Positions 1,441 to 22,917 of a DNA stretch of 22,917 bases are shown here, piece by piece. The notes beneath the pieces were generated by a model. The model saw only the letters and a program-made list of their open reading frames with translations. It had not been told where the DNA came from and did not search any database. Positions within the stretch are counted from its first letter, which is position 1. Each line of letters opens with the position of its first letter. Origin of the DNA: a virus. Location of the stretch: positions 1-22,917 of the IMG/VR virus record IMGVR_UViG_3300010935_000177; one strand, given 5' to 3'. The translations under genes and the position numbers were made by a program.

Positions 1441-2427
1441 ATGAAACCCTCTTCTATCCGCAAGGCACTGCCACGCCTGATCGCCAAACAACGCCCGCCA
1501 TTCATCTGGGGCGCACCTGGCGTAGGCAAATCCGACGTTATCCGTCAAGTCGCCGAAGACATGAAACTCGAACTGCGCGATGTGCGTCTCTCGCTGCTTG
1601 ACCCGATTGATCTCAAAGGATTTCCCGTAGTCGACACCGCCAAGAAACAAATGAAGTGGCTGCCAGCCGACTTCCTGCCTACCAAGGGCAAGGGTATCCT
1701 GTTCCTGGACGAACTTAACGCCGCGCCTCAGTCGGTGCAGGCAGCCGCCTACCAACTGATCTTGAACCGCAAGATCGGTGACTACGAGCTTCCTGTGGGC
1801 TGGGCCGTGATCGCCGCGGGCAACCGCGCTGGTGACCGCGCTGTGGTTCATGCCATGCCCTCAGCGCTGGCCAACCGCTTCGTCCATCTGGACTTCGATG
1901 TCAGCGTCGACGACTGGAGCATCTGGGCCATGGTCAACGAGATACACGACGACCTGCGCGCCTTCATCCAGTTTAGGCCCAACCTACTGCACAGCTTTGA
2001 CCCGGCCACCAACCCGCGCGCCTTCCCAACACCGCGCAGCTGGGCCTTCGTCAACGACATCTACAAGGACGGCCACACGCCGGACGAAGAGTTCGAGCTG
2101 ATCAAAGGCACCGTGGGCGATGGCGCCGCGGCTGAGTTCTCCGGCTTCGTGCGTCAGATCAAGGACTTGCCCAAGATCGACGCTGTGCTGCTCGACCCCG
2201 AAGGCACCCGGGTGCCAGCCAACCCAGCGGGAATGTACGCGATGTCGACAGCGCTCGACGCCAAAGCCAGCATCACCAACCTGGAGCGCATCATGAAGTA
2301 CATGAGCCGCCTGCCGGTGGAGTTCCAAACCGTGTTCATGCGCTCGGCTATCCGACGCGACGAGAAACTCACAGGAACGAAGGCGTTCCAGAGCTGGGGT
2401 ATCGCGAATCAAAGTGTTTTAGTCTAG
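1441..2427 (+). CDS. MoxR-type AAA+ ATPase
   Basis: This 328-residue ATPase is predicted to couple ATP hydrolysis to remodelling of a partner protein. Walker A is GAPGVGKS at residues 24-31, Walker B is ILFLDE at 86-91, and a sensor-1-like IAAGN lies at 124-128. The SALANRF segment soon after supplies an arginine-finger-like residue, and the C-terminal part is helical. This arrangement is typical of the MoxR branch of AAA+ proteins, which usually pair with VWA-domain partners such as the one encoded at 4213-5295. I chose the ATG at 1441 because GGAG sits five bases upstream. The ATG at 1396 has no visible Shine-Dalgarno, though it would add 15 residues. The stop codon lies within the AGGAG that serves the next gene. 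Confidence 0.9.
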   Translation: MKPSSIRKALPRLIAKQRPPFIWGAPGVGKSDVIRQVAEDMKLELRDVRLSLLDPIDLKGFPVVDTAKKQMKWLPADFLPTKGKGILFLDELNAAPQSVQAAAYQLILNRKIGDYELPVGWAVIAAGNRAGDRAVVHAMPSALANRFVHLDFDVSVDDWSIWAMVNEIHDDLRAFIQFRPNLLHSFDPATNPRAFPTPRSWAFVNDIYKDGHTPDEEFELIKGTVGDGAAAEFSGFVRQIKDLPKIDAVLLDPEGTRVPANPAGMYAMSTALDAKASITNLERIMKYMSRLPVEFQTVFMRSAIRRDEKLTGTKAFQSWGIANQSVLV

Positions 2428-2436
2428 GAGCAAACC

Positions 2437-3261
2437 ATGAACCACGATAACGCCATGCTGGTGCAGCTCTCAATATCCCAGTGGACTGCCCGCAAACAAG
2501 ACAAAAAAGTCTCCAAAGAAGTCGAGAGCGTGCACGGTGCGCACAACGCCGGACGCTTCAACAAAGACCTGGTTAACCGCGAGCTGCTGGAACCGATCAC
2601 CAAGATCGTCACCAAGGCACGCGACTACCACTACAACATGACGCTGCCCTGGAAAGACAACGGCGAGCGCCTGCTGCCCAGCAAGCTGTTCATGCAGTAC
2701 ACCGGCAACATCCGCAGCCTCAAAGCTGAGTTCGCCAAAGCTGTGGACAACATGGTGGCGGCCTACCCGGCCGAAGTCCAAGCCGCACGCAACCGTCTGG
2801 GCAGCATGTACGAGCCCGGTGACTACCCTGACTCGTGCGATGTCAAGCACAAGTTCAGCCTGGAGGTTGAGTTCACCCCGATACCTCACGTCGCCGACTT
2901 CCGCCTGGACGTCTCGGCCGAAGCCCAAGATGAGCTCAAGGCCTCGCTGACCCAGGGCATCGCTATACGCCAAGCTGGTGCGGTCAAGGCTACCTATGCC
3001 CGGGTGCGCGACGTGGTCTACAAGATCGCTGAGCGGCTCGGTGATGATCAGGCGATCTTTAAAGACAGCTTGATCAACAACGCCATCGAACTCTGCACCG
3101 TGCTCGACGGCCTGAACATCACTAACGATCCGGCCATCACAGCGCTGGCGGTGCGCATCAACAATGAGCTGATCCACTCGCCAAGCGTGCTGCGTAATAA
3201 CTCGCACGTGCGGGCCCGAGTAGCCCTGGCAGCCAACGACATCCTGAACAGCCTGCCGTGA
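2437..3261 (+). CDS. Unknown protein of the MoxR/VWA cassette, possibly DUF3150-like
   Basis: The protein is 274 residues, with no signal peptide, membrane segment or catalytic motif that I recognise. It is mixed charged and largely helical, with a conserved-looking core around residues 60-110 (YHYNMTLPWKDNGERLLPSK, then YTGNIRSLKAEF). The C-terminal half is mostly amphipathic helices. Position directly after a MoxR ATPase and ahead of a VWA protein is typical for DUF3150-type proteins in other mobile elements. That family assignment is inference from context, not from a diagnostic motif. AGGAG lies six bases before the ATG at 2437. The gene ends in a GTGA overlap with the next one, so the products are probably made in coordinated amounts. 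Confidence 0.75.
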   Translation: MNHDNAMLVQLSISQWTARKQDKKVSKEVESVHGAHNAGRFNKDLVNRELLEPITKIVTKARDYHYNMTLPWKDNGERLLPSKLFMQYTGNIRSLKAEFAKAVDNMVAAYPAEVQAARNRLGSMYEPGDYPDSCDVKHKFSLEVEFTPIPHVADFRLDVSAEAQDELKASLTQGIAIRQAGAVKATYARVRDVVYKIAERLGDDQAIFKDSLINNAIELCTVLDGLNITNDPAITALAVRINNELIHSPSVLRNNSHVRARVALAANDILNSLP

Positions 3262-3473
3262 CAGACGATGACGAAATCGAGCTAGTGTGGCGGGCATTAC
3301 AACAGCTGTCCAATGAACAGGACATCTGGCACAAAAACCTCGTCATGTACCGCCGCATGGACCGCGGCCCCCGTATCTGGTGGTGGCGTGCGGCCAAAAA
3401 ACAAGCCGAACTCGGCGTTCCGGCCATGCAGACGCTGCTGACTCGGGTCATCACACTAAGGATCACATCATGA
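3258..3473 (+). CDS. Small charged unknown protein, GTG start
   Basis: This 71-residue protein starts at GTG 3258 inside the GTGA overlap with the preceding stop, and ends in an ATGA overlap with the following gene. It begins acidic (TDDDEIELVW) and then becomes basic and Trp-rich around residues 38-48 (GPRIWWWRAAKKQ). No family is recognised. Tight coupling on both sides within the MoxR/VWA cassette is the main support that it is a real gene. Confidence 0.65.
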   Translation: MTDDDEIELVWRALQQLSNEQDIWHKNLVMYRRMDRGPRIWWWRAAKKQAELGVPAMQTLLTRVITLRITS

Positions 3474-4216
3474 CTTATTCAATCAGCACCCACGGCATGA
3501 GCTGTATCTACAGCCTGGCCCAGGCCGCGAAGTTCTGGAGCGAACAGCCGGTCTGGAAAGGAAGGTCCGCTTCGTGGAAGCCGCTCGACTCTACGCGCAT
3601 GCCCCACAAGCGCATCGTCAAGCTGGCTGATGACAAGGGCTATGAACTCACGCTCTATGGCACACCAATGGTGACTTACTTCGCTGATGGCCGCGTTGCA
3701 TTGCGCTGCTACGACTCCTTTTCTTCAATGACGTTTGCCTGGCGGGTGTGTCCCCCAGGCTGTAGGCCCACAAGCCAGAAAGGTAGGATGTATTGGGAGG
3801 TTGACACCCCCGAAGGCAAACGCTTTTACAAAGAGGACACGATACCCCTGATGCTCACGCCTACCGGCGATGGGGCACAGCTCTGGCGCTTGACAACTGA
3901 GCCACTAACTGAAAAAGAATGGCACTACGACCCCAAGCTCGGCGCCCAAGCGCGCAAAATCATCAAGCCCTACTGCCAGTGGCACAACGTCATGGTGAGA
4001 CTCACAGGTGCCATGCCCCCCGGTGCAACCTGGTCTGGGCAGCGTAAACAAGCCGCTCGAGCACTGATAGATGACCCCGACAACGTAGAGCTATACCCCC
4101 AGATCGCAGAATCACTCGGTTACCCTGCCGACGCCCGCAAATATGCGTATCTTGAGTTCGGCGCTCGGTATCAGACCGACGCCCCTCATGATCACTTACC
4201 AAAGGGTTCAATATGA
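3470..4216 (+). CDS. Conserved unknown protein of the MoxR/VWA cassette
   Basis: The 248-residue protein starts at ATG 3470, which overlaps the previous stop as ATGA and follows a CTAAGGA Shine-Dalgarno. An open frame extends further upstream but inside the previous gene. The N-terminal half reads like a beta-rich domain: WKPLDSTRMPHKRIVKLADD, then YELTLYGTPMVTYFADGRVA and LRCYDSFSSMTFAW. The second half contains WHYDPKLGAQARKIIKPYCQ and a helical C-terminus. I associate similar proteins with phage MoxR/VWA modules but know no assigned activity. It ends in an ATGA overlap with the VWA gene, so it is likely co-translated with it and may be a partner or substrate adaptor (inference). Confidence 0.75.
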   Translation: MTYSISTHGMSCIYSLAQAAKFWSEQPVWKGRSASWKPLDSTRMPHKRIVKLADDKGYELTLYGTPMVTYFADGRVALRCYDSFSSMTFAWRVCPPGCRPTSQKGRMYWEVDTPEGKRFYKEDTIPLMLTPTGDGAQLWRLTTEPLTEKEWHYDPKLGAQARKIIKPYCQWHNVMVRLTGAMPPGATWSGQRKQAARALIDDPDNVELYPQIAESLGYPADARKYAYLEFGARYQTDAPHDHLPKGSI

Positions 4217-5295
4217 ACAACCAAGTCGCCCAGCAGCTCACCCGAGCGCGCACCTCTCTGGTGCTGGACCAGCCCTTTCTGGGCATGCTGGCCCTGCGCT
4301 TAGCGATGGTGGAGGACCCCTCCATCAAGTCCGCCGCAGTTGATGGGCGCAGCCTGTTCTACAACCCCGACTTCATTGCCAGACTTTCCCCAGCCAAAAC
4401 CATCACCCTGGTAGCGCACGAAGTCGGCCACTGTATGTTCGACCACATCGGTCGACGCGGTGACCGTAATCACCGTAAGTACAACCAGGCGGGTGACTAC
4501 GTCATCAACGCCACGCTCAAAGACGCTGGCTTCGAAGAGATCGATGACTGGCTGTTCAACCCGGCGTTCGCGGGCATGAGCTCCGACCACATCTACGCCC
4601 TGTTGCCTGACAACGAAGAAGGTAACGACCCACTCGACGACTGCCGAGATGGTGATGCCGAGAGCGCTGAAAGCGACGCGATCGAGTGGAAGATCGCCAC
4701 GATCCAGGCTGCCGAGGCGGCTAAAGCCATGGGCAAATTACCCGCCAGCATGCAGCGCTTTGTCGAAGAGCTAACCGCTGCCAAGGTCGACTGGCGCGCG
4801 ATCCTGCGCCGCTTCGTCACAGAAACATCAAAAGATGATTACTCGTGGCAGCGCCCGAACCGACGTTTCCTGAACCAGGGTTTCTACCTGCCCACGCTGT
4901 ACAGTGAGTCAATGGGGGAAATTATTATCGCCATCGACACCTCAGGTTCCATCGACCAGACCACGCTCAACGCTTTTGGCAGCGAAGTCAAGGCCATCGT
5001 ACAGAGCAGCCGACCCGCGAAGACCACAGTCATTTACTGCGACTCAGCCGTGAACCACGTGGACGAGTTTGGCCCGAACGACGACCTGGTGTTCAAGATG
5101 CACGGCGGCGGTGGAACGAGCTTCATCCCTCCGTTCCTGCACGTAGCCGAGAAGGGCATACAGCCGGTGTGCATGTGCTACCTCACTGATATGTACGGCG
5201 CCTTCCCCCAAGGGCCACCAGACTTTCCTGTCCTGTGGTGCGCAACAACTGACATCATCGCACCTTGGGGCGAGACCGTCAGATTGGAGATTTAA
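4213..5295 (+). CDS. VWA-domain protein with N-terminal zincin-like HExxH motif (DUF2201/VWA-like type)
   Basis: This 360-residue protein has two parts. Residues 1-150 resemble a metallopeptidase-like domain with HEVGH at 69-73, a motif that in zincins supplies two zinc ligands and the catalytic Glu. A linker precedes SWQRPNRRF at about 211-219, typical of DUF2201/VWA-like proteins. The C-terminal domain carries a MIDAS metal site: DTSGS at 242-246, a glycine-rich turn with GGGGTSF around 298-304 (Thr302), and Asp326 in YLTD. All MIDAS residues appear intact, so metal-dependent ligand binding is plausible. In MoxR systems the VWA protein is usually the partner of the AAA+ ATPase, here encoded at 1441-2427. 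Whether the HEVGH site is catalytic cannot be judged from sequence alone. Confidence 0.88.
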   Translation: MNNQVAQQLTRARTSLVLDQPFLGMLALRLAMVEDPSIKSAAVDGRSLFYNPDFIARLSPAKTITLVAHEVGHCMFDHIGRRGDRNHRKYNQAGDYVINATLKDAGFEEIDDWLFNPAFAGMSSDHIYALLPDNEEGNDPLDDCRDGDAESAESDAIEWKIATIQAAEAAKAMGKLPASMQRFVEELTAAKVDWRAILRRFVTETSKDDYSWQRPNRRFLNQGFYLPTLYSESMGEIIIAIDTSGSIDQTTLNAFGSEVKAIVQSSRPAKTTVIYCDSAVNHVDEFGPNDDLVFKMHGGGGTSFIPPFLHVAEKGIQPVCMCYLTDMYGAFPQGPPDFPVLWCATTDIIAPWGETVRLEI

Positions 5296-6899: not shown

Positions 6900-6980
6900 G
6901 TTAGAATGGCGCATCCCTCGAAAGATTACCAGTCCTTCGAGAGACACTTCAAACAACTTTGTCATTGGAGGACAAGCGTC

Positions 6981-7493
6981 ATGAGCCAGGCAATTCTAAC
7001 CCAAGCGCGACTTAGAGAGCTCTTCGATTACGACCCCGAGACGGGGGTCATGACGCGGCGCATCAGTACGGCCCCACGCGCCCAAGCCGGGCAGATCGTC
7101 GGCACCCCCGACGGAAGCGGTTACCTTCGAATCTCCATCGGCGGGAAAAAGTTCAGACTGCACCGCCTGATTCACATGTACGTGCATGGCGCTTGGCCTG
7201 AGCACGACATCGATCACCGTGACCGCAACCGATCAAACAATCGGCTGCTAAACCTACGTCCGGCCACACGCGCGGAAAACTGCCAAAACTCCGGCATCCC
7301 TGCACACAACACGTCGGGATTCAAAGGAGTCAGCTGGTCAAAGACTATGCATAAGTGGGAGGCGCGTATCTCAGTAGCTAACCACGGAAAAGTGCTCGGC
7401 TACTTCAAGACACGTGAACTCGCGTCCGCTGCCTATCAGACAGCGAAACTTATCTACCACCCAACCGCCCCCGTGGCCCAACAAGGAGCCTGA
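6981..7493 (+). CDS. HNH-AP2 homing endonuclease
   Basis: This 170-residue protein is a typical free-standing phage homing endonuclease, predicted to cut a DNA target in related phages and spread its own gene. The HNH_3-type nuclease region spans about residues 58-101, with His61, the HDIDHRD segment at 75-81, Asn91 and LNLRPATRAEN. An AP2 DNA-binding domain follows at 112-165 (SGFKGVSWSKTMHKWEARI, then YFKTRELASAAYQ). I chose ATG 6981 because GGAGG lies nine bases upstream. An in-frame ATG at 6906 would add 25 residues with no Shine-Dalgarno and no homology-like sequence. Its last codons contain the AAGGAG that serves the downstream nuclease gene, so the element is neatly fitted into the transcript. 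Confidence 0.9.
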   Translation: MSQAILTQARLRELFDYDPETGVMTRRISTAPRAQAGQIVGTPDGSGYLRISIGGKKFRLHRLIHMYVHGAWPEHDIDHRDRNRSNNRLLNLRPATRAENCQNSGIPAHNTSGFKGVSWSKTMHKWEARISVANHGKVLGYFKTRELASAAYQTAKLIYHPTAPVAQQGA

Positions 7494-15399: not shown

Positions 15400-15954
15400 T
15401 TGAAACACATCATGTTTGACAACGAGACGCTCGGCACCGCTGCTGACGCCTGCATTATGAGCATTGGGGCGGTTAAGTTTGATCTTGACTCGGACCGTAT
15501 TGATGACGCGGGCTTTTACGCCAGCGTCTCGATCGAAAGTAACCTGGAGCTCAAAAGGCGCGTCCAGGAGGATACGCTTATCTGGTGGATGAACCAGGGC
15601 GACGACGCCAAGGGCGTGTTCAATGAAGCCAAGCAGACGCTGCGCACGGCGCTCGGAGCCTTGTCAGACTGGATCGGCGACGGTGACTACTATGTCTGGA
15701 GCAACGGGGCCGATTTTGATATGCCCATGCTGGTGCATGCCTTCGTCCAGTGCGGCATGGAAGTGCCGTGGAAGTTCTGGAACGGCAGGTGCTTCAGGAC
15801 CTACAAAAACCTGCCCGGTGCCAAGCTCATCCGCGTTCCGTTTACGGGGGTTAAGCACAACGCGCTGTTTGACGCGGTACATCAGGCGCAGACCGTGCAG
15901 GCGATCCAGCGCGTGCTGTTCACCGGCAAGAAGCACAGCATGGTGAAGGCATGA
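15400..15954 (+). CDS. DEDDh 3'-5' exonuclease (RNase T / DnaQ-like), TTG start
   Basis: The 184-residue protein carries all DEDDh motifs: DNE at 7-9 in MFDNETLG (Asp7, Glu9), NGADFD around 102-107 (Asp105 or Asp107), and HNALFD at 153-158 (His153, Asp158). This small single-domain type is common in phages and is often annotated as an exoribonuclease or RNase T-like enzyme. Whether the substrate is DNA or RNA cannot be told. I chose TTG 15400 because GGAGG is four bases upstream and the resulting N-terminus MKHIMFDNETLG is typical. The ATG at 15412 is 16 bases from that site and would leave only one residue before the ExoI Asp. It ends in an ATGA overlap with the next small ORF. Confidence 0.85.
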   Translation: MKHIMFDNETLGTAADACIMSIGAVKFDLDSDRIDDAGFYASVSIESNLELKRRVQEDTLIWWMNQGDDAKGVFNEAKQTLRTALGALSDWIGDGDYYVWSNGADFDMPMLVHAFVQCGMEVPWKFWNGRCFRTYKNLPGAKLIRVPFTGVKHNALFDAVHQAQTVQAIQRVLFTGKKHSMVKA

Positions 15955-18673: not shown

Positions 18674-19390
18674 ATGAATCATACATACCACCTGACCCGC
18701 GTCAGCGGGAACGCCAAGACGGGGCCGATTCCAGTGTCCACCACCAGCATGTCGACCTGCCCGACCTGCCCACTCAAGGGCAACGGGTGTTACGCTGAGA
18801 GCGGGCCGCTGCGCCTGCACTGGAACAAGGTCTCGAGCGGAGACCGAGGCGGCACGCTCACTGAACTGTGCGCCAGCATCCGCAAACTCCCACGCCAACA
18901 ACTCTGGCGCTGGGCACAAGCTGGGGACCTCCCTGGCGCTGACGACCTGATCGACGTGGCCGCCCTGGCCCAGCTCACTCAGGCCAATCAGGGCCGACGC
19001 GGCTTTGGCTTCACGCACTACGATGCTGAGATACCGGCCAATGCCGCCGCGCTTACAGCGTGCAACGCTGCCGGGTTCACCATGAACCTGTCAGCCAACA
19101 CGCTGGCTGACGCAGACCGGTTGGCCGCCACGGGTGCTGGGCCCGTGGTGGTCGGGCTGTCAATTGACCAGACCAAGCCGACGCGCACACCGGCGGGCAG
19201 GTTTGTGGCAGTATGCCCAGCTACCCAGCGCGACGATGTGACGTGTGCCACGTGCGGCATCTGCGCCCATGCGACACGGCGTGCCATCATTGGTTTCCCA
19301 GCCCACGGGTCTGGTGCCAAGAAGGCGCAAGTAATATTTTTCCAACCCCGGGCGCAAGCCCACAACGAAAGCAACTATGCTGTTATATAA
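18674..19390 (+). CDS. DUF7227-like phage protein with two cysteine clusters
   Basis: This 238-residue protein has six clustered cysteines. Cys29, Cys32 and Cys39 lie in TCPTCPLKGNGCYAESGP. Cys181, Cys191, Cys194 and Cys197 lie in CPATQRDDVTCATCGIC, with Cys181 leading the second cluster. Between them are barrel-like segments such as GFGFTHYDAEIPANAAAL and FTMNLSANTLADADRLAAT. The protein is widespread in phages as a hypothetical, and I believe it corresponds to the DUF7227 family. The cysteines suggest zinc or Fe-S binding, but no CxxxCxxC radical SAM motif is present. TGGAG precedes the ATG at 18674. The gene overlaps the next start by 14 bases. Confidence 0.8.
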   Translation: MNHTYHLTRVSGNAKTGPIPVSTTSMSTCPTCPLKGNGCYAESGPLRLHWNKVSSGDRGGTLTELCASIRKLPRQQLWRWAQAGDLPGADDLIDVAALAQLTQANQGRRGFGFTHYDAEIPANAAALTACNAAGFTMNLSANTLADADRLAATGAGPVVVGLSIDQTKPTRTPAGRFVAVCPATQRDDVTCATCGICAHATRRAIIGFPAHGSGAKKAQVIFFQPRAQAHNESNYAVI

Positions 19391-20233: not shown

Positions 20234-22917
20234 TTAGGCCCCGCCCGCTGTCGAAAACCCGCTCGTGACCAGTCGGCCGTACAGCGAGTGCAGCGGCATC
20301 GCGTTGAGCGCAGACTTGCTGCCGAACCCATCGCGCGCTGCGTCAACAATCTGCTCGAACGCTGGCCCGCCGAGCGAGGCCCAGTCATGCGCCGCATCGA
20401 CCCCGATTACCCCGATGCCACTGAGCCCAGCCCGCTGCCCCCCGAACATCACCCAGTCACCCGCGTTCATGCTGGCCATGTAAGGCGGCAGTGAACCGCC
20501 GCCCTGGATCAGGCCCTTGATAATGTCGGAGCTAATCATCGTGGGGATGAACAGCGCCAGGGCGCCGAGCGGGGCGATGTTGCCGTGGGAAAGCTCATTC
20601 GTCACGCGCTTGAGGATGGTCTGGTGGAAGCTGTAGCTGAACTGCTTCAGGTGAAACGCCGAGGCATAGTTCGGGTCGCTTGACCATGCAGGGCGTTGCG
20701 CAGCGTTCGGTGTCAGCACCGCGCCTTCGACCCAGCGGTTGAGCGCGTCGTGGATCGGCGCTATGCGCTCGCGGGCGTCGTCCAGCGTGATGCCCTTGAG
20801 CACCGCCAGCTGCTGCGGGCTCGTCACCAGCTTACCGTCGTCCATCGTGATCTGGCTGGGCTGCAGCCCCAGCTCCTTGAGCCAGCGCTCACTGTGAACC
20901 TTGTCCGGCAGCGAGGCGTGCGTCTCGATGAAGCGCACCGCCCACTTCGTAGCCATGATCCGGCTGCCCCGGTTCCACGCTTCCATGCCGTTGAAGGCGA
21001 ACATCTTGTCATTGAGCTTCTTGGCGCCCGGCGTCATGTAGGTCGAGCTGTACTCGTCCGACACGTGGTGCTGGAACATGGCGATCTCGCTGGCCCCGAT
21101 GTGCTCGGCCAGCTGGCGCCACTCGTCCTTCTGGCGCTCGGGCGGCATGTCCTTGAACGCATCCGCCCAGCCCCGGAACACTTCGCGCATGCCGTAGACG
21201 AAAGTCTCGTAAGCAGCCTGGAGCGGAGCGCCGCGCGCCACCACGGCCAGCGGATCAACGAACGAGCTGAACAGCGCCATGGGCAGTAGCCGGATGTTCT
21301 GGTACACCGCCATCCAGCTGTTGAAGGTGCGCATGCTGGGCGAGACGTCTTTACCGATCGTGCCCTCCATGGCGCCAACGCTCTGGGAGATGTCGCGCAT
21401 CCGGCGCGCCACCCACTTGACACGCGCCGCTTCGTCCTTGACCTCACCGCGCTTCATCATCTCCTTGGAGACACTACTGAGCTCGATGTTGATGCGGCCC
21501 AGCATCTTCTCCATCTTGATGCCGTTCTCGCCGAAACGGCGGAAGTATTCAGTGGCGTGTGCGCCCTGGCTGAAGTACCGGGTCAGCGTCAACGGCATGT
21601 CCTTGTCGAGGTACTTCTCGCGGTCGGCTGCTTCGAGCCACGGTAATGTGCGCATCTCCTGGCTGGCAAAGAACGGGGACAGCACGCCGTCCTCGCGCCC
21701 AGCAGGAAGGTGAGCGTCGACACCCTCCTTGTTTACCAGGCTCTGCCAGATGCGCGTCGCTGCTTTGTGCGGGTTGCGGGCGCCCATCTGGACAGCGTAC
21801 TTCGTCACCAGCATGTCGATGAACTCTTTCTTGTTCGCATTCAGCAGGTTCGGGTTCCACACCACAGGGTAGTAGTTTTCAACCTTGCCGATCTTCAGCC
21901 CCGCGTCCGTCATGTACTTGTGGAAGCGGTCCAACAGGTCGCGGATGTCCTTGACCGCCTCGCGCTGCTCCTTGTCGGCGATGGTTCTCGGGTCAGTTCC
22001 GCTCTGCAGGTACTTCTGCACAGCGTTTTTGTCCACATCGCTCATGGTCTCAAAGTGACGGTTGGACACGTTGGTGTACTGCTGCGCCACGTTGCGCCTG
22101 GCGTTAATCATACCGATCGCCTCAGACCCGTGGGCCTCTTCGCCCGGGTTCGTGAACATCATGGCGCTGAGCTTCCTGGCCGTGGGGCTGGGGCTCCTGC
22201 CTAGAATCTCGGCCGCCGGGAACACCAGCGAGGCCACACGCTGACGCAGCGCGTCAGTCTGGGCACGCAGCTTGAGGGCGTTTGTGCCCCGGTTCATGGC
22301 CTTGGCGATCACCTGCCCAGCCGCTGAGGGCTCACTCATTTTGCCGTTGTCAAAGGCCTGAAACAGCTCCAGGGCGCGTTCGGAGTCCCTGACCATGCCC
22401 AGCACATGCCGGAAGAACTTACCGATCTTCTGGAGCCACGTATGGGCCTTGGTATCGACCTGCAGCAGGCCTGCTTTCCAGAACTGGTAGGTGTAGCTCA
22501 GCCGCTCCTCGCCAGACCCCGGGCCATACAACTGGGCCTGGGCGTTGGGGTAGCCGTCCAGCAGGCTTTCGAGCTTGGCCAGGTGCTTGGGGTCGTTGAT
22601 CAGGGTCTCGAATGTGGTCTGCAGCTTCGGATTACTCTTGACAAAGTCCCTGAAGAACACGTGCATCGCCTCGTGGTACAGGGTGTTCATCGTCCCGGCC
22701 GCTGCCGTGGTGCTGATCTCAATCACGTTCTGCGCGTCAATGAACTCACCGGAGTACCCGGTGATGTCCTTGAAGGCGACGGCGATCTTCGGCCCGAGGG
22801 TCTTGAGGGCGTAGTTCTTGGCCTCGTCCATCTCGGCCTGGGTGGCGACTTTGGAGAACCCCGCGGATGCGCCGTCCTTCCAGCCGTCGTATTTTGCGTT
22901 GCCTGAGTGGCCCTGTT
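20234..22917 (-). CDS. Large virion-associated or polyvalent protein with HEAMH zincin-like motif, N-terminus outside window
   Basis: The frame is open to the right edge, with 28 further residues before the first in-window Met at 22831. The gene therefore starts outside and this is the C-terminal part, at least 893 residues. Counting from that Met, YHEAMH (His53, Glu54, His57) looks like a zinc metallopeptidase site, with GEER near 107-110 as a possible third ligand. The middle is long and charged, with helices. Near the C-terminus there are hydrophobic, membrane-active-looking stretches (PLGALALFIPTMISSDI) and a glycine-rich end. Such giant proteins are usually carried in phage particles and injected with DNA, or are multi-domain polyvalent proteins. 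The opposite orientation to the replication genes fits a separate late transcript. Exact identity is not recognised. Confidence 0.8.
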   Translation of the reverse strand, partial: QGHSGNAKYDGWKDGASAGFSKVATQAEMDEAKNYALKTLGPKIAVAFKDITGYSGEFIDAQNVIEISTTAAAGTMNTLYHEAMHVFFRDFVKSNPKLQTTFETLINDPKHLAKLESLLDGYPNAQAQLYGPGSGEERLSYTYQFWKAGLLQVDTKAHTWLQKIGKFFRHVLGMVRDSERALELFQAFDNGKMSEPSAAGQVIAKAMNRGTNALKLRAQTDALRQRVASLVFPAAEILGRSPSPTARKLSAMMFTNPGEEAHGSEAIGMINARRNVAQQYTNVSNRHFETMSDVDKNAVQKYLQSGTDPRTIADKEQREAVKDIRDLLDRFHKYMTDAGLKIGKVENYYPVVWNPNLLNANKKEFIDMLVTKYAVQMGARNPHKAATRIWQSLVNKEGVDAHLPAGREDGVLSPFFASQEMRTLPWLEAADREKYLDKDMPLTLTRYFSQGAHATEYFRRFGENGIKMEKMLGRINIELSSVSKEMMKRGEVKDEAARVKWVARRMRDISQSVGAMEGTIGKDVSPSMRTFNSWMAVYQNIRLLPMALFSSFVDPLAVVARGAPLQAAYETFVYGMREVFRGWADAFKDMPPERQKDEWRQLAEHIGASEIAMFQHHVSDEYSSTYMTPGAKKLNDKMFAFNGMEAWNRGSRIMATKWAVRFIETHASLPDKVHSERWLKELGLQPSQITMDDGKLVTSPQQLAVLKGITLDDARERIAPIHDALNRWVEGAVLTPNAAQRPAWSSDPNYASAFHLKQFSYSFHQTILKRVTNELSHGNIAPLGALALFIPTMISSDIIKGLIQGGGSLPPYMASMNAGDWVMFGGQRAGLSGIGVIGVDAAHDWASLGGPAFEQIVDAARDGFGSKSALNAMPLHSLYGRLVTSGFSTAGGA

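Follow-up and report, generated by a model that had tools for sequence, protein, structure and literature searches.

Hexamers of MoxR-type AAA+ ATPases act on their targets via partner proteins carrying a VWA domain, and in the case of NorQ/NorD a finger of the VWA domain enters the pore of the ATPase (PMC13036017). Such pairs have been described in phages: gp24 (an AAA+ ATPase) and gp25 (a vWFA protein) of phage N4 are encoded by core genes of the Schitoviridae/N4-like phages (PMC7650795, PMC2784036), and a pair comprising a MoxR ATPase and a metallopeptidase-vWA protein was reported in 2021 in jumbo phages by Iyer et al., who drew an analogy with an archaeal virus to suggest that it functions in virion assembly (PMC7824862). 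In a 2009 study of plasmid pCAR1, ORF101 was recognized as encoding a MoxR ATPase and ORF103 a VWA protein, and ORF100 to ORF103 were noted to be conserved in R478, Rts1, SXT, and R391 (PMC2642839). Here, we describe a cassette of five genes, all on the plus strand, at positions 1441 to 5295 of the 22,917-base virus record IMGVR_UViG_3300010935_000177 (the whole of which is referred to as the window). The conserved unit of this cassette is a trio encoding a MoxR ATPase, a DUF3150-like protein, and a zincin-VWA protein; the known pair is thus accompanied by an apparently undescribed third subunit and by two passenger genes.

Architecture of the cassette and its described relatives

The first gene of the cassette (1441 to 2427) encodes a MoxR-type ATPase which is assigned to phrog_1297 of PHROGs. 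Although its open reading frame (ORF) opens at 1396, we favor the start at 1441, which is closely preceded by a GGAG sequence and is where the alignments of homologues begin. Its Walker A (GAPGVGKS, 1510 to 1533) and Walker B (ILFLDE, 1696 to 1713) motifs are both intact, and the protein scores above the Pfam cut-offs of AAA_3 (32.9 versus 27), AAA_5 (27 versus 22), and also AAA. The last gene (4213 to 5295) specifies a 360-amino-acid protein in which an N-terminal zincin domain (DUF2201_N, PF13203; 176.9 bits versus a cut-off of 23.2, E 8e-52) and a VWA domain (DUF2201, PF09967; 90.4 bits versus 26.4, E 1e-25) are fused in one chain. This protein harbors the zincin motif HEVGHCMFDH (HExxHxxxxH) at 4417 to 4446 and the metal ion-dependent adhesion site (MIDAS) motif DTSGS (DxSxS) at 4936 to 4950, together with T302 and D326. 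Both assignments bear out those of the first-pass annotation of this DNA, which had called an intact MoxR-type ATPase and an intact MIDAS VWA protein. The label “HNH endonuclease” carried by phrog_1314, which many RefSeq phage annotations use to name the product, was rejected, the window member being a zincin-VWA protein according to Pfam.

Between these two genes lie the gene for the DUF3150-like protein (274 amino acids, 2437 to 3261), P3 (71 amino acids with a GTG start, 3258 to 3473), and P4 (248 amino acids, 3470 to 4216). Four-base overlaps join the DUF3150-like gene to P3 (GTGA), P3 to P4 (ATGA), and P4 to the VWA gene (ATGA); the continuous chain of overlaps that had been proposed from the ATPase onward is, however, interrupted at the MoxR-DUF3150 junction, where the genes are 9 bp apart.

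The MoxR and zincin-VWA proteins of the window are homologous to those of the N4 gp24/gp25, phrog_1297/phrog_1314, and jumbo-phage pairs, which are similarly encoded in one operon, and in the N4-like Vibrio phage SBP1 the pair is located upstream of replication genes, as it is in the window. In contrast to the N4-type pair, the window carries a DUF3150 gene between the ATPase and VWA genes, and the pair-only phages occupy separate branches of the VWA tree, in which the main pair-only branches are set apart from the trio loci and the window is sister to L080 (72% identity). NorQ/NorD and RavA/ViaA likewise consist of a MoxR ATPase with a VWA co-protein (PMC13036017, PMC10585395), and the window ATPase is indeed encoded with such a partner. 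Pfam did not yield a CbbQ_C match for this ATPase, which on that basis does not group with NorQ/NorD or CbbQ/CbbO, and NCBIfam gave no match of the window proteins to NorQ/NorD or RavA/ViaA. To our knowledge, neither DUF3150 nor the DUF2201 zincin features in published descriptions of the latter two systems. The MoxR-vWA ternary conflict systems (bpMoxR, VMAP, iSTAND) also combine a MoxR ATPase, a peptidase-fused or peptidase-linked VWA protein, and a third component (PMC7159879, PMC12839542); the third component of the window, by contrast, matches DUF3150 and none of their named domains, and the window ATPase scores 12.8 against the bpMoxR cut-off of 27 in Pfam. Assignment to a known defense system was similarly rejected, as PADLOC returned no match beyond weak AAA ones.

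The conserved trio and its DUF3150-like subunit

Alignment-based scans provided 65 genome loci, 80 viral loci retrieved with the VWA protein, and 80 viral loci retrieved with the MoxR protein, across which trio order and strand were scored with hidden Markov models built from alignments; the viral loci are the best 80 matches per query, and their fractions describe the neighborhood of each query rather than all phages. Of the 80 VWA-derived viral loci, 62 showed the order MoxR-DUF3150-VWA on one strand, and a further 2 did so with a split ORF; this order was shared by all six plasmid loci (Burkholderiales plasmids) and by 43 of the 65 genome loci. In the six plasmids examined, the DUF3150-like gene is flanked by one for a MoxR-type ATPase and one for a VWA protein of the DUF2201 type. 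VWA-derived viral loci without the full trio were mostly cut at contig ends or contained split ORFs, while in L081 the DUF3150 gene was located further upstream. MoxR-derived viral loci were predominantly pairs without DUF3150 (58/80), and in the pair-only phages examined DUF3150 was detected neither by its Pfam profile nor at the loci, nor was a remote version found among their gap genes. No fusions between two core proteins were found, and single-protein scans returned no close relatives. In tblastn searches, the ATPase was matched in 814 phage records and the VWA protein in 541, while the DUF3150-like protein was matched in 42 plasmids and, among named phage records, was detectable only in three near-identical 65,014-bp cyanophage records. 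At three viral loci near the trio clade, the DUF3150 slot is filled by a different family of approximately 225 amino acids beginning MATVRMS (L140, 5068 to 5748; L179, 4358 to 5014; L169, 5538 to 6233).

The third subunit is named DUF3150-like because the window sequence alone reaches 18.6 bits (E 0.0013) and thus stays below the Pfam cut-off of 24.9 (PF11348). Its family is nonetheless homologous to canonical DUF3150, as 25 of 78 relatives match the profile (best E 2e-12), and the gene at 2437 to 3261 is, judged by these profiles, a divergent DUF3150 homologue. An AlphaFold2 model computed from 69 sequences (predicted local distance difference test [pLDDT] score, 95.2; predicted template modeling score, 0.88) had no Foldseek match in PDB at an E value below 0.001 (best, 0.3), and its eight matches in BFVD were DUF3150, uncharacterized, or unnamed viral proteins. 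The fold is, accordingly, confidently modeled and, at the Foldseek sensitivity used, has no counterpart among solved structures. The literature searched contained no description of DUF3150 as a constant third subunit and did not mention DUF3150. The novelty claimed for the system is, therefore, confined to this subunit, the phage MoxR/zincin-VWA pair having already been published.

DUF3150 is also found apart from the pair, being present at 18 genome loci from which MoxR and VWA are absent. In 14 of these, a different AAA+ ATPase (PF00004) with a long N-terminal domain, which we take to resemble Ycf46, is encoded upstream, while the remaining 4 loci are cut near or within the DUF3150 gene. As every VWA-less locus with sufficient upstream sequence has a PF00004 AAA+ gene, DUF3150 appears to track AAA+ ATPases. 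Neighbors at these loci include RadC, SSB, UvrD, and PDDEXK genes, and DUF2201_N, sought in eight genomes with DUF3150-only loci, was not found above its cut-off.

P3 and P4, on the other hand, are lineage local and lie outside the conserved unit. Homologues of P3 were found only between DUF3150 and VWA in L082, L083, L084/L161, and L168, and those of P4 only in L080 and L081; neither protein had homologues in the phage or plasmid collections or a Pfam match, and each is absent from close relatives which retain the trio. The model of P4 (pLDDT, 85) gave nothing significant against PDB in Foldseek. At other loci, genes between the core genes are similarly mostly locus specific (76 nonredundant genes out of 87). 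Within the operon, both P3 and P4 are passengers. It had been suggested that all five genes, with three unknown partners between ATPase and VWA protein, constitute a single system. The tight overlaps across 2437 to 5295 speak for this; the lack of conservation of P3 and P4 makes it extremely improbable, and it is rejected. Of the intervening genes which had been put forward as new components, that at 2437 to 3261 is a genuine one, a DUF3150 homologue conserved far beyond chance, while P3 and P4 are not, leaving a unit of three genes.

Motif conservation differs between the two domains of the VWA protein. The MIDAS is complete in 193 of 196 VWA proteins, with a T-to-S change in the remaining 3. 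The zincin motif is retained in all 145 phage/viral copies, as well as in the window, and missing from 7 of the 50 plasmid/genome copies (those of L011, L013, and five genome loci, all of which keep the MIDAS; this combination was never seen in the viral copies examined). Docking, therefore, looks more basic than proteolysis, the latter looking, from motif retention, to be selected in phages. Among the ATPases, a Walker B DD in place of DE was observed in many trio members (L009 to L014, the plasmid type, and part of the viral trio MoxR proteins), and in neither the window ATPase nor any pair-only ATPase.

Genomic setting in viruses and on mobile elements

The neighborhood of the trio was surveyed in 40 viral records. 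In all 32 in which DNA_pol_A was found, it was encoded downstream and on the trio strand, at a median distance of 4.1 kb and within 8 kb in 29; PDDEXK_1 was on the trio strand in 31 of 31, and terminase faced the other way in 25 of 26, counts whose independence is inflated by kinship among the viruses. In the window itself, the cassette is followed, on its own strand, by genes for PDDEXK_1, an SNF2-type helicase, DNA polymerase A, and DNA ligase, and a matching arrangement is seen on the window's own branch and in its neighbors L081, L082, L084, L088, L096, L117, and L168. The phage trio heads a replication operon. Within this operon, the window also encodes an Rv2179c-like 3'-5' exoribonuclease (15400 to 15954; E 2e-43) and a DUF7227 protein (18674 to 19390; E 2e-88), and just downstream of the cassette lies a gene (6906 to 7493) which, judged by its sequence, is of the HNH homing-endonuclease-like type. 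Elsewhere in the window, a phrog_18326 protein (372 to 971) contains an alanine/glycine-rich repeat (IATGVAAGIAAGIAAG), which also yields a spurious MQQGLQQGLQQG ORF in another frame (718 to 1080), and an 865-amino-acid protein without a Pfam match is encoded on the minus strand (20234 to 22831); the latter carries a second zincin-like motif, HEAMH, and is possibly a polyvalent or virion-associated protein.

The trio is not phage specific. The gene between MoxR and VWA is DUF3150 in pCAR1 (E 8e-92) and R478 (4e-23), and the cassettes of pCAR1 (IncP-7), R478 (IncHI2), Rts1 (IncT), and IncC plasmids comprise the same three components as the window, of which MoxR and DUF3150 are homologous by profile: hhalign aligned the window family with plasmid DUF3150 at 97.5% (E 7e-12, 228 columns) and with plasmid MoxR at 95.8% (E 8e-9). 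The plasmid VWA proteins share the N-terminal HExxH and C-terminal MIDAS of the window protein (HExxH near residue 60 and DxSxS at 416 to 505 in 5 of 5 examined), although at 586 to 668 amino acids they match general VWA models rather than DUF2201. Plasmid DUF3150 proteins are also longer than that of the window (375 to about 478 amino acids), with identities to it of 19% (pCAR1) and 17% (R478). Profile comparison links the trio to these uncharacterized cassettes on IncP-7, IncHI2, IncT, and IncC plasmids. Their neighbors are recombination genes, the order being ssb-recT-exo-x-MoxR-DUF3150-VWA in Rts1 and pSC-KP443, MoxR-x-ssb-bet-exo-DUF3150-VWA in an IncC plasmid, and MoxR-x-bet-exo-DUF3150-VWA in pVPS62. 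No fewer than 1117 plasmid records contain DUF3150 relatives, and 969 of these records are typed conjugative. As related trios stand beside recombination genes on many conjugative plasmids, the trio is probably a tool common to mobile DNA elements, and it is probably also present in integrative elements. The SXT literature searched did not name the trio. In the Rts1 record (L253, 29030 to 32192), an IS2 transposase gene interrupts the VWA gene, and the trio may be broken.

Proposed function and significance

We tentatively propose that the three proteins of the trio together constitute a single ATP-driven remodeling machine of mobile DNA elements which acts in replication or recombination. The basis of this proposal is the co-conservation of the trio, its gene order, the conservation of its motifs, its replication and recombination neighbors, and the exchange of AAA+ partners by DUF3150. 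The predicted MoxR hexamer would hydrolyze ATP, and the VWA protein would dock on the MoxR ring and present the target via its MIDAS, with DUF3150 perhaps being a dedicated adaptor or structural subunit which couples the AAA+ ring to that target; in phages, whose copies keep the zincin motif without exception, this domain may also cleave the target. The likeliest stage would be replication or recombination of the element's DNA, that is, the loading, maturing, or dismantling of nucleoprotein complexes, and not particle assembly.

Several observations weigh against this proposal. Many phages (N4-like and PA5oct-like) use the pair without DUF3150, many of the viral contigs derive from one related group and their counts are not independent, and the MoxR and VWA trees differ in their placement of the window's clade. 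The profile match between the zincin-VWA and plasmid VWA proteins is weak (75%, E 3e-5, covering the N-terminal 60 columns only), and neighborhood does not equate to function. At 41 of the 49 plasmid/genome Burkholderiaceae-type trio loci (L017 to L060), virB11/virB4 type IV secretion genes follow the VWA gene on the same strand. Deletions of bet, exo, s067, s068, and s070 in SXT reduce transfer at most 10-fold (PMC2791158), a set of five genes which may include trio genes, and no trio gene figures among the 32 genes reported as serving efficient conjugation of Rts1 (PMC10838148); judged by these tests, the trio does not appear to be a central component of transfer.

The main rival to a remodeler of element DNA is counter-defense or host takeover, whereby an early-made trio, driven by ATP and perhaps acting by proteolysis, would disable a host defense or enzyme complex on entry of the phage or plasmid. 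The early-operon place of the trio in phages, its being common to phages and conjugative elements, the unbroken retention of the zincin motif in phages, and the variable small genes inserted among the core genes would all suit such a role. We nevertheless regard it as somewhat unlikely, as the non-ATPase proteins matched no defense model, the MoxR matches were weak and at the level of AAA, and the consistent proximity of polA, ssb, recT, and exo to the trio suits DNA metabolism at least as well. A chaperone or protease of virion assembly, as proposed for the jumbo-phage pair, would be in keeping with a protease domain which processes structural proteins and, as far as the citing account conveys, with a reported requirement for MoxR-VWA in tail assembly of an Acidianus virus (cited in PMC7824862). 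Yet the trio also occurs on conjugative plasmids, which make no virions, and the phage trio lies on the replication strand, opposite terminase; virion assembly is for the former reason an unlikely common function. Insertion of a metal or cofactor, in the manner of NorQ/NorD, CobS/CobT, or CbbQ/CbbO, appears more doubtful still: MoxR/VWA pairs of solved mechanism do insert metal (PMC13036017) and the pCAR1 ATPase matches CbbQ_C, but the window ATPase does not, and no conserved client metalloenzyme was seen beside the cassette.

The trio is of interest for its distribution, which takes in phages, plasmids, and probably integrative elements, and for adding DUF3150 to the partners of AAA+ ATPases. 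The link between phages and plasmids argues against the published virion-assembly proposal for the phage pair. Plasmids bearing DUF3150 include IncC and IncHI2, which spread drug resistance, and the phage link provides a tractable route to the function of their cassette. It is conceivable, if rather doubtful at present, that the trio represents an unrecognized, widely shared ATP-driven and possibly proteolytic remodeler in phages, conjugative plasmids, and integrative elements, in which case DUF3150 would constitute a new class of AAA+ partner that can switch between MoxR and another AAA+ ATPase.

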